DNA of 38,767 nt from Flavobacteriaceae bacterium (lineage in GTDB: Bacteria > Bacteroidota > Bacteroidia > Flavobacteriales > Flavobacteriaceae). The translations under genes and the position numbers were made by a program. Each line of letters opens with the position of its first letter. The stretch's first letter is position 1. The stretch lies in NCBI GenBank assembly GCA_023258055.1, contig JALRAI010000006.1, forward strand, positions 1 to 38,767, written 5' to 3'. Shown here piece after piece: positions 3,929 to 38,767 of this stretch. The notes beneath the pieces are model-generated. The model did no database searches and was not told where the DNA came from. It worked only from the letters and a program-made list of their open reading frames with translations.

Positions 3929-4711
3929 ATGAATCAACCACTGGCTTACGTTCATCCTGGTGCGAAAATCGCAAAAAACGTTGTAATTGAACCATTTACA
4001 ACTATACACAATAATGTTGTTATCGGTGAAGGCACTTGGATAGGATCCAATGTAACGATAATGGAAGGGGCGAGAATCGGTAAGAATTGTAATATTTTCC
4101 CCGGTTCGGTTATCTCAGCCATCCCTCAGGACTTGAAATTTAAAGGAGAGGAAACCACAGCCGAAATTGGAGACAATACCACAATTCGTGAATATGTTAC
4201 CATAAATCGCGGGACTATTGACCGCGGAAAAACTGTGGTGGGAAAAAATTGCTTGATCATGGCTTATTGCCATATCGCACACGATTGCATCGTTGGGGAT
4301 AATTGTATATTTTCAAATAATAGCACTCTGGCGGGGCACATCAATGTGGGTGACTACGTGGTTTTGGCAGGGATGACCGCTGTACATCAGTTTTGTATGA
4401 TCGGTAATCACGCCTTTGTTACCGGAGGTTCGTTGGTTCGTAAAGATGTACCTCCATACGTTAAGGCGGCTCGTGAGCCCTTGTCTTATGTAGGAATTAA
4501 CTCGGTCGGTTTAAGACGCCGAGGCTATTCAAGTGAGCAAATCCGTGAGATTCAGAGCATTTATCGCATTTTATATCAAAAAAATTATAACAATACCCAA
4601 GCCGCACAAATCATAGAGGCAGAACTTGAGGCGACGCCCGAGCGTGATGAAATATTGCAGTTCATTAAGGACTCCAAACGAGGTATCATGAAAGGGTATT
4701 TTCAAAATTAA
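3929..4711 (+). CDS. lpxA: LpxA, UDP-N-acetylglucosamine O-acyltransferase
   Basis: First enzyme of lipid A synthesis: moves a 3-hydroxyacyl chain from ACP to the 3-OH of UDP-GlcNAc. The 260 residues match the E. coli enzyme (262). Hexapeptide repeats form a left-handed beta helix over about residues 1-180, followed by a helical tail (SYVGINSVGLRRRGYS). The catalytic histidine is H118 in HIAHDCIVG, with H115 at the position of E. coli H122. The block PQDLKFKGE (66-74) matches PQDLKYQGE. It begins 3 bases after lpxC-fabZ, so lpxD, lpxC-fabZ and lpxA form one operon; lpxB is not in the window. Confidence 0.96.
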   Translation: MNQPLAYVHPGAKIAKNVVIEPFTTIHNNVVIGEGTWIGSNVTIMEGARIGKNCNIFPGSVISAIPQDLKFKGEETTAEIGDNTTIREYVTINRGTIDRGKTVVGKNCLIMAYCHIAHDCIVGDNCIFSNNSTLAGHINVGDYVVLAGMTAVHQFCMIGNHAFVTGGSLVRKDVPPYVKAAREPLSYVGINSVGLRRRGYSSEQIREIQSIYRILYQKNYNNTQAAQIIEAELEATPERDEILQFIKDSKRGIMKGYFQN

Positions 4712-36395: not shown

Positions 36396-37820
36396 ATGAC
36401 CATTACAGAATTCGAAAAAGCCCTAAAAAAGGCGTTGGCACATACACCAACCCCAGGACAGGAGCAGGCTATTTTATCTATGTCTGAATTTTGTGTAAAT
36501 CGCCAGGCAGATCGTGTTTTTTTGCTCACTGGCTATGCTGGTACAGGTAAAAGTACCCTAATCGGGGCTTTAGTCCGAACTTTGGACCAATTCAAGCGTT
36601 CCAGTGTGCTGATGGCCCCCACAGGTCGTGCAGCCAAAGTAATCAGCCAATACAGTAATCGAGAGGCGTTCACTATACACCGAAAAATCTACGTGCCTCG
36701 AAGTCAAAAGGGTGGTGGGATTAAATTCGCCTTGCAAGCCAACAAACATCGCAATACCTTGTTTATCGTCGATGAGGCTTCTATGGTTCCAGATACCAAT
36801 ACCGATGCTAAAGTTTTTGACGGCCAATCCTTACTAGATGATTTGATGACCTATGTCTATAACGGCCAGGGATGTCAGCTCATGTTTGTGGGTGATCTTG
36901 CCCAATTACCTCCGGTACACCTTAACATCAGTCCTGCTTTAGACCCCGATGTATTGCGCATACAATTTCACAAAACTGTGATCCAGTTTGCCCTTACAGA
37001 GGTTGTACGTCAAAAAGAGCAAGGGGATATTGTCTCCAATGCCACCAATATTCGTCAGTGGATACAGCAGGACACTCCTGAGCAATTGCATTTTGAATTG
37101 GGCCGACAAGATGAAGTTATTCGTCCTTTTGGGGGACAAGAAGTTTTGGAGGCTTTAGAACAGGCTTTTTCCAAGGATAATTTGGATCAAGCAGTAGTCA
37201 TCGTTCGTTCAAATAAGCGGGCTAATTTGTACAATCAGCAGATCCGTCAGCGTATTTTATTTCGCGATCAAGAGCTTTGTGTGGGCGATGTGCTTATGGT
37301 CGTTAAAAACAATTATTACTGGTTAAAGCCTGCTGATTCTGCAGGTTTTATCGCCAATGGCGATATCATAGAAGTCCTAGAGATATTTGAATTCCTTTCA
37401 ATTTATGGGTTTGATTTTGCTAAGGTCCGGGTGCGTATGCTCGATTACCCTGGTCAACCCCCGTTTAATACGGTTTTGTTATTAGACACCATCAACAGCG
37501 AGAGCTCCAGTTTGACTTACGAACAATCCAATGCGCTTTATCAGGCTGTGCGCGAGGATTACGCAGAGGTCAAGTCAAACTACAAGAAGTTTTTGGAAAT
37601 AAAAAACAATCAATTTTTTAATGCCCTTCAAGTAAAGTACAGCTATGCCATTACCTGCCATAAATCTCAAGGGGGGCAATGGGATCGAGTTTTTGTCGAA
37701 CAGCCATACCTTAAAGAGGGCATCAACAAAGAATATCTTCGCTGGCTTTACACCGCGATGACTCGGGCAAAAAATCAGCTTTATTTGTTGGGCTTTTCAA
37801 AGGAATATTTTGAGGCCTAA
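36396..37820 (+). CDS. RecD-like superfamily 1 helicase
   Basis: 474 residues of the RecD/Dda type. Walker A GYAGTGKST is at 46-54, Walker B FIVDEASM at 123-130, and motif III is FVGDLAQLPPV. The C-terminal part has the UvrD_C_2 pattern YAITCHKSQGGQWDRVFVE and the last motif LYTAMTRAKNQLYLL. Superfamily 1B helicases unwind DNA 5' to 3'. Its gene precedes the kdsB gene after 93 bases, with a separate box between them. Confidence 0.88.
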   Translation: MTITEFEKALKKALAHTPTPGQEQAILSMSEFCVNRQADRVFLLTGYAGTGKSTLIGALVRTLDQFKRSSVLMAPTGRAAKVISQYSNREAFTIHRKIYVPRSQKGGGIKFALQANKHRNTLFIVDEASMVPDTNTDAKVFDGQSLLDDLMTYVYNGQGCQLMFVGDLAQLPPVHLNISPALDPDVLRIQFHKTVIQFALTEVVRQKEQGDIVSNATNIRQWIQQDTPEQLHFELGRQDEVIRPFGGQEVLEALEQAFSKDNLDQAVVIVRSNKRANLYNQQIRQRILFRDQELCVGDVLMVVKNNYYWLKPADSAGFIANGDIIEVLEIFEFLSIYGFDFAKVRVRMLDYPGQPPFNTVLLLDTINSESSSLTYEQSNALYQAVREDYAEVKSNYKKFLEIKNNQFFNALQVKYSYAITCHKSQGGQWDRVFVEQPYLKEGINKEYLRWLYTAMTRAKNQLYLLGFSKEYFEA

Positions 37821-37884: not shown

Positions 37885-37892
37885 TATTTTTG
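37885..37892 (+). promoter_or_regulatory. Candidate -7 promoter box for the kdsB fusion gene
   Basis: TATTTTTG fits TANNTTTG and lies 21 bases before the TTG start at 37914. No TTG at 17-23 bases upstream. Confidence 0.45.
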
Positions 37893-37913
37893 ACCCCTAA
37901 AAGACAACGACCA

Positions 37914-38767
37914 TTGAAAATTATTGCGATGATTCCGGCGCGTTACGGTGCCTCTAGATTTCCAGGAAAATTAATGCAAGACTTGGGTGGTAAGCCTGTG
38001 ATTGTCAGAACATATCAGGCGGCAAAAGCCACTGGTTTGTTTGATGAGGTTTATGTCGTGACGGACAGTGATGTTATTTTTAAGGAAATAGAGTGGCATG
38101 GTGGACAAGCCTTAATGAGTCAAAAAGATCACGATTGTGGGACAGATCGCATCGCTGAGGCTGTGGTCGATATGGATGTAGATATCGTGGTCAATGTGCA
38201 AGGAGATGAGCCCTTTACCAGTAAAGAAGGTCTAGCTCAAGTCTTGAGTGTTTTTGATGGTCCAGATGCGGACCAAATAGATCTCGCCTCGTTAATGACT
38301 GAAATTCAAGATTGGCGTGAGATCAGTGACCCTAACGCCGTAAAAGTCGTGGTGGATAAAGAAAATTATGCCTTGTATTTTTCGCGAAGTCCAATTCCTT
38401 ACCCAAGAGACAAGAACACTGCGGTACAATACTTCAAGCACAAAGGAATTTACGCCTTTAGAAAGCAAGCCCTTTTGGATTTTTACAATCTGCCGATGAC
38501 CATACTCGAGGCCACTGAAAAAATCGAATGTATACGCTTTTTAGAGTATGGAAAGCGTATCAAAATGGCAATTTCAAATACCCAAGGCATCGAAATTGAT
38601 ACGCCAGAGGATCTCGTTCGTGCCAACAAGGTCCTTAAAGAAGAAAAACGATTGCCCATCAACAATAAGTACCGCAATTTCCCTATGGTGCCCAAAGTGG
38701 TTTATGGAAATGGTTGTTTTGAGCAACTGGCGAGTATTTTAGGGCCTCAGCGTAAAGAAAAGGCCCC
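37914..38767 (+). CDS. kdsB: KdsB-KdnB-like fusion (3' end outside window)
   Basis: The frame is open from the TTG at 37914 to the end of the window, 284 codons. Residues 1 to about 245 are KdsB, which makes CMP-Kdo or CMP-8-amino-Kdo for the lipopolysaccharide core: [13 protein letters not shown] (7-19), VNVQGDEPF, and IDTPEDL (228-234). After about residue 245 there is no stop; a short linker ([15 protein letters not shown]) leads into [18 protein letters not shown] (259-276) and QRK (279-281), which looks like the start of KdnB, an iron-dependent alcohol dehydrogenase that oxidises Kdo at C8. E. coli KdsB ends near 248 residues. The start is TTG because no in-frame ATG lies before the family motif. 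Confidence 0.85.

Follow-up and report, generated by a model that had tools for sequence, protein, structure and literature searches.

The last open reading frame (ORF) of a 38,767-nucleotide stretch of Flavobacteriaceae DNA, analysed here as a whole and called the window, runs from a KdsB domain into the beginning of a KdnB domain. The product of this fused gene is best read as a predicted bifunctional Kdo 8-dehydrogenase/CMP-Kdo8N synthetase. We regard it as highly probable that one protein unites two enzymatic activities of the Kdo8N route in separate catalytic domains, with a predicted N-terminal KdsB, a short flexible linker and a C-terminal KdnB. Sequence comparisons document the fusion, the identity of its domains, the conservation of their catalytic residues, a single origin in the tree and co-occurrence with KdnA.

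Results

The 3' end of the window carries the first part of the fused gene

The window corresponds to the entire contig C176 of the source genome (G000), a 1.78 Mb assembly that is 75% complete and consists of 209 contigs. The 5' portion of the fused kdsB-kdnB gene lies on the + strand at 37890..38765 and comprises 292 codons, with no stop up to the contig end. Its start is uncertain, either TTG 37890 or TTG 37914; the ORFs of two other genera (L007, L008) begin at the latter. KdsB is followed in frame by about 33 KdnB residues, and the ORF ends only where the contig does. We attributed residues 9-250 to the KdsB (CMP-Kdo/Kdo8N synthetase) domain (37914..38639, +), the next 8 residues to the inter-domain linker (38640..38663, +, with BLAST-based boundaries as applied to the relatives) and the following segment to the start of the KdnB domain (Kdo 8-dehydrogenase, Fe-ADH family; 38664..38765, +). 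The upstream neighbour (36396..37820, +) encodes a helicase with AAA and UvrD_C domains and stands outside the pathway; a similar ORF is also found upstream in the same-genus loci that were read.

Residues 12-224 match the cytidylyltransferase family PF02348 (1.2e-50, 172.8 bits for a cut-off of 22.6), and the window protein passes the TIGR00466 kdsB model with 197.9 bits (cut-off 155.2). The hint of KdnB that the original prediction had picked up is correct but weak on its own, since the last 41 residues of the ORF reach only E values of about 0.005, to two Shewanella KdnB-type PDB sequences (3rf7, 0.0048; 5k8c, 0.0051) and to no others.

The complete gene in relatives and its continuation in the source genome

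A homologue search covered 60 relatives. Five of the seven sampled genomes of the same genus contain a complete fused gene of 617 aa, and two other genera contain a complete one of 609 aa that includes the whole of KdnB. These genes bear out the proposal that the frame passes beyond the end of KdsB into KdnB. One member of the genus, G005, gave no match to the fusion query. Another, G007, carries the KdnB part on a contig (C198) that opens with 92 unrelated bases and a stop ahead of the linker. These bases (L050 1-92) match nothing among the loci compared except 15 bases of L033, and they are joined exactly at the linker; they represent either a chimera at the edge of the contig or a genuine break, and this junction cannot be judged because of the unmatched bases and the stop at the contig edge.

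Searching the window genome for Fe-ADH sequences identified a single location, at the very start of contig C130, where the KdnB domain resumes after 66 codons. The frame found there (L031/L036 3-782) encodes 259 aa whose top solved match is the S. oneidensis KdnB structure 5k8c (7.4e-106). It is followed by an acyltransferase gene, as is the fusion in relatives, and C130 and C176 are ordered like the two sides of the fused gene in G001. Aligned to the relative, the two pieces span residues 1-292 and 359-617, with codons 293-358 uncovered. As the gene is split over two contigs in this way, its continuity in G000 is inferred from gene order. No stop or frameshift soon after 38767, which the original prediction had named as evidence against a fusion, was seen; the 66 codons beyond the contig end are uncovered.

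The C130 piece is unusually divergent from the genus. It shares 76.8-82.2% identity with the other members (82% with G001, 77% with G003), compared to 85.3-95.8% among these members. For the KdsB part, on C176, identity reaches 96% with G001 and 93% with G003. This divergence raised the question of a foreign contig, which was rejected: the other genes of C130 are as far from G001 and G003 as the genes of C176 are (G000-G003 being similar to G001-G003), and a tree places the KdnB piece with the genus (SH-aLRT 99, end branch of 0.26). On both grounds C130 was kept as the likely continuation and is probably the right contig for the rest of the gene; the divergence may reflect a fast-changing or partly recombined KdnB.

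Both halves match their solved counterparts and keep their catalytic residues

The 617-aa relative L003 was used to assign the C-terminal half. Both S. oneidensis KdnB 5k8c (residues 260-616 of L003, E 1.4e-129) and S. denitrificans 3rf7 (5.7e-131) align to this whole half, and the next Fe-ADH structure is far behind (8.2e-25). The domain thus belongs with KdnB, as had been proposed, and not with an unrelated family. Full-length L003 also exceeds the cut-offs of the Fe-ADH domains PF00465 (90.2 versus 31.3 bits) and PF25137 (53.6 versus 27 bits). Its residues 10-251 match the KdsB-type structure 1gq9 (5.1e-47), and E. coli KdsB (3k8d) and KpsU (1gqc) align over the whole N-terminal half, here fused to KdnB.

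We then inspected the catalytic residues in a redundant set of 132 fused loci. The KdsB residues A17, R18, K27, D86, D106, E107, H184 and D237 are kept in all of them and Y19 in 131; we assume the active-site roles of these residues, including D106 and D237. In the KdnB half, D452, H456, H519 and H533, an Asp-His-His-His set that we take to be the metal residues of Fe-ADHs, are present in 131 loci, and the remaining locus ends too early. D106, D237 and the other checked KdsB residues are present in the window, and the C130 piece keeps its checked KdnB residues, including the metal residues.

Wherever synonymous change could be measured, purifying selection is indicated on both sides of the junction. 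For the KdsB part of G000, w was 0.026 against G001 and 0.014 against G002, and the G003-G004 KdsB comparison gave 0.016. For the 33 KdnB residues of the window, w was 0.012, 0.010, 0.093 and 0.067 against G001, G002, G006 and G003, respectively. It was undefined for the C130 piece because synonymous change is saturated, as in many pairs.

An AlphaFold2 model of the fused relative L112, computed from 57 aligned rows, reached a mean pLDDT of 83 and a pTM of 0.58; a first model based on a 7-row alignment (pLDDT 44) was discarded. The fold of the L112 model corresponds to KdnB (5k8c and 3rf7, TMt 0.93) and KpsU (1h7e/1gqc, TMt 0.91), and its KdsB half scores 0.86-0.91 against KdsB structures (3k8d, 1gqc). 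The linker, residues 252-265, has a pLDDT below 50, and the relative placement of the two domains was left uninterpreted. Across fused loci the linker is 7-20 residues long.

The fusion is confined to one branch of the Flavobacteriaceae in these samples

At least 40 of the 397 sampled Flavobacteriaceae genomes, from 25 genera, carry the fusion. In 38 of them it forms a single frame, each re-read as one ORF; in G231 it is cut by a contig end and in G000 it is divided between contigs. G176 and G282, where both halves are spanned with stops in between, were discarded as adjacent genes. In a second sample, which overlaps with these genomes, a fused ORF of 609-632 aa was found in 79 of the 80 named loci listed (of 425 confirmed), L188 lacking it. 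The named carriers include Aequorivita, Aquimarina, Ulvibacter, Altibacter, Gilvibacter, Marixanthomonas and Patiriisocius. The window MAG is fragmented and incomplete and its gene is cut by contig ends, so that an assembly artefact joining two genes had to be considered; it is rejected, with a probability close to nil, because this fused ORF recurs in isolates and in independently assembled genomes, including Aequorivita, Aquimarina, Ulvibacter, Gilvibacter and others.

No fusion was detected outside the Flavobacteriaceae in a phylum sample of 395 genomes, 15 of which, outside the family, matched at E 1e-100; the only one spanning both halves, G530, has a stop between them. Tabulated frames of 838-945 aa at some KdnB matches suggested KdsB-HAD-KdnB triple fusions, and these were also rejected, the DNA of L192, L193, L195, L196, L197 and L207, together with L194 (tabulated at 618), containing separate ORFs. 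Separately, a record titled Candidatus Rokubacteria (L113, OMJU01000038.1) contains a flavobacterial fusion at 95% identity, with the gene positioned as in G002:C38, a contig from the genus of the window; its title looks mislabelled.

To follow the history of the fusion, 197 two-domain loci were reduced to 148 by removing near-copies (ungapped comparison) and to 111 by thinning at 90% identity, G038 being represented twice in the final set. The KdsB+KdnB tree was obtained by a quick search with SH-aLRT support only. Its 54 fused and 57 split rows call for two state changes, compared to about 37 for shuffled labels. Two changes are again obtained when the KdnB C-part is analysed by itself, and the fused set together with L239 then occupies a branch with a support of 97; in the two-domain tree the SH-aLRT of the fused clade is 90, under 95. 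The simplest history would be one fusion in the ancestor of the group extending from Aquimarina to Aequorivita/Ulvibacter, and one re-split in G217. In the latter genome (L239), placed within the fused clade, kdsB ends 7 bases ahead of kdnB (4301-4307) with a change of frame, which is either a re-split or a sequencing frameshift. With both genes apart again in this locus, the fusion appears not to be indispensable. Taken on these comparisons, the fusion is real, old and, in these samples, confined to one Flavobacteriaceae branch.

KdnA accompanies the fusion in the genome but not at the locus

The original prediction also expected a KdnA-type aminotransferase gene next to the fusion. Such a gene does exist in G000, where contig C175 encodes a 396-aa protein whose best solved match over 391 residues is S. 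oneidensis KdnA (5k8b, E 4.4e-140; next match, 5.3e-55), but it is unlinked to the fusion gene. KdnA, KdnB and KdsB are thus all encoded in this genome, on C175 and C176/C130, together with KdsC on C128 and a member of the Kdo transferase (WaaA) family on C168. The expected adjacency does not hold: kdnA is absent from the examined flanks of all 94 fused loci.

At the level of genomes, KdnA co-occurs with the fusion. It is encoded in 38 of the 40 fused genomes, G223 (96% complete) and G322 (76%) being those where it was not found, and in 211 of the 220 genomes that have at least two hits or the genes side by side, our proxy for separate KdsB and KdnB. Conversely, none of the 109 genomes with a single unfused hit contains it, and three further genomes have kdnA with no hit. 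KdnA combined with either a fused KdsB-KdnB or at least two hits taken as separate proteins is therefore found in 249 of the 397 sampled genomes. No plasmid copy of kdnA was found at E 1e-80.

These data bear on the possibility that the C-terminal domain is another Fe-ADH acting on some other substrate, and that the KdnA-like protein is an unrelated sugar aminotransferase. The Fe-ADH and DegT families are large, and no NCBIfam model named KdnB or KdnA is among the matches. The wide gap that separates the Shewanella KdnB-type structures, and likewise KdnA, from the next matches, and the co-occurrence of KdnB and KdnA with each other and with KdsB, nevertheless make this very improbable.

The gene actually following the fusion encodes a PF01553 PlsC-like acyltransferase in 86 of the 94 fused loci, some of which come from one genome. 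Four of the remaining eight loci end at a contig end, two have an acyltransferase nearby and two are without. In G000 this PF01553 acyltransferase gene occupies L036 790-1350, downstream of the KdnB end, and it follows kdnB in fused and split loci alike; lipid A or the inner core might be the target of this putative enzyme.

Most split Flavobacteriaceae loci that were read contain, between kdsB and kdnB, a gene for a HAD-family hydrolase of about 233 aa (L192 6054-6758, L194, L196, L207 and others), sometimes accompanied by a CAT-fold acetyltransferase (L038 8774-9391). No HAD hydrolase gene was found near the fusion among the 94 fused loci. A role of this gene as a KdsC replacement was discarded as unnecessary, since KdsC scores above its cut-off in G000, and likewise in 29 of 31 genomes.

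Unfused kdsB and kdnB lie side by side in L042, L202, L203 and L273/L296, and the kdnA, kdsB and kdnB families are adjacent in the Bacteroidota loci L042, L282, L288 and L289. Distant kdnA-kdnB pairs, with kdnB at 47-52% identity and no close KdsB adjoining, were also observed in other Bacteroidota families (L290-L294, in G789, G601, G558, G657 and G509); they could serve another sugar.

A glutamate at KdsB position 235 goes with kdnB

Two residues before the conserved Asp237, the window encodes a glutamate (Glu235, codon GAA, 38592..38594, +), a candidate amine-recognition residue. Glu occupies this position in all 148 KdsB rows from loci with kdnB. In genomes without kdnB it is found in 6 of 33 KdsB, the others having Gly (26) or Ser (1), and Gly stands at the aligned position of E. 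coli KdsB and KpsU. Outside the family, KdsB encoded near kdnB also has Glu in L282, L285, L286, L288, L289 and L296. In L290, L293 and L294 it has Ser or Cys; these KdsB represent a distant lineage, at 32-37% identity, and are perhaps not the partners of kdnB. Within the family, L295 has Gly at 235 although a kdnB-like gene is present. When independent pairs were compared, four were supported, of which about two were concordant and none discordant (median p 0.5), so that the association of Glu235 with kdnB falls short of significance, the independent contrasts being too few. Our working hypothesis is that Glu235 contacts the 8-amino group. Lys185 was considered as a second selectivity residue and dropped because it follows lineage, with Ile or Val in 11 of the 148 rows with kdnB and Lys in 8 of the 33 without.

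The same comparison weighs on another reading of the protein, in which the KdsB domain would activate ordinary Kdo as an essential housekeeping enzyme, KdnB would provide a minor or conditional side path and most LPS would carry Kdo. G000 has a single KdsB hit, close homologues of its KdsB function in genomes that have neither kdnA nor kdnB (109 of the 397, each with one unfused hit), and Glu235 also occurs in some KdsB where kdnB is missing. The contrast between Glu in every row with kdnB and Gly in most rows without argues against it, as does the KdsB of Shewanella, which is reportedly Kdo8N-selective according to the work of Gattis in 2013. We consider this reading unlikely and retain the bifunctional Kdo8N enzyme. 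The fused KdsB may also accept Kdo, as its close relatives serve genomes that lack kdnA and kdnB.

Discussion

The substrate of each domain, the occurrence of Kdo8N in LPS and any gain from the fusion are inferred. Kdo produced by KdsC would enter the route and the KdnB domain would oxidise its C8 to the 8-aldehyde, which the separately encoded KdnA would transaminate to Kdo8N. The KdsB domain would then convert Kdo8N to CMP-Kdo8N, and WaaA would pass the sugar to lipid A. Joining the two enzymes could fix their stoichiometry, bring them into proximity and allow the CTP-driven last step to pull the unfavourable oxidation forward.

Whether the fusion has any such effect is a separate question. 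Neighbouring genes may simply have been joined neutrally, the enzymes working as when separate, with neither channelling nor docking of KdnA. This proposal concerns the effect of the fusion and is compatible with the bifunctional enzyme described above; we lean slightly towards it. It fits with the adjacency of kdsB and kdnB in unfused loci, with a linker that varies in length and is modelled at low confidence, with the re-split in L239, and with the middle enzyme, KdnA, being neither fused nor near in any of the 94 fused loci. Against it, one can argue that a single gain kept over 25 sampled genera, with a single re-split, has persisted longer than a wholly neutral change might. A more ambitious proposal goes further than the bifunctional enzyme: Kdo8N, in print a hallmark of Shewanella, would be the ordinary inner-core sugar of most Flavobacteriaceae, the fused enzyme of one lineage would work around a docked KdnA, and the Gly-to-Glu change at KdsB 235 would set the selectivity for the amino sugar. 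We put it forward as speculative and rather doubtful in its entirety.

The KdsB-KdnB fusion is a new arrangement of known enzymes. The kdnA-kdsB-kdnB gene cluster, which we take to be present in Shewanella, comprises the same three families, but here kdsB and kdnB form one gene and kdnA lies elsewhere, the C175 protein resembling S. oneidensis KdnA and being unlinked to the fusion. Similarly, 5k8c (3-deoxy-alpha-D-manno-octulosonate 8-oxidase) and 3rf7 are separate proteins, whereas their counterpart here forms the C-terminal domain in a chain of 609-632 aa, and Glu235 in the KdsB domain of this chain differs from the Gly of E. coli KdsB and KpsU.

In open-literature titles and abstract starts, a scope outside which most subscription papers fall, we found neither a KdsB-KdnB fusion nor Kdo8N in flavobacteria. 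A passage of a 2014 review states that Kdo8N was confirmed in other bacterial species, two of its three references concerning Shewanella (PMC4052302), and an excerpt of another article lists KdnB as the catalyst of the first step (PMC5125639). The C8 signal of Kdo8N lies near 44 ppm in NMR (PMC6357163). Kdo8N-type genes have been annotated outside Shewanella, judging from extracts that mention a Kdo8N cytidylyltransferase in a Pseudoalteromonas strain (PMC9966250) and kdnB in Leptospira (PMC8510873).

An old and well-defined bifunctional enzyme in cultured Aequorivita, Aquimarina, Ulvibacter and Gilvibacter would offer a test case for Kdo8N channelling, and Glu235 could serve as a simple marker of KdsB selectivity and as a residue to mutate in studying it. 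The prediction is that Kdo8N, reported mainly from Shewanella in the open literature searched, replaces Kdo in many flavobacteria. If made, it would sit between the lipid and the sugars of the outer membrane, and a positive charge at C8 of the inner-core sugar would be expected to alter the charge of this membrane and its binding of cations or peptides.
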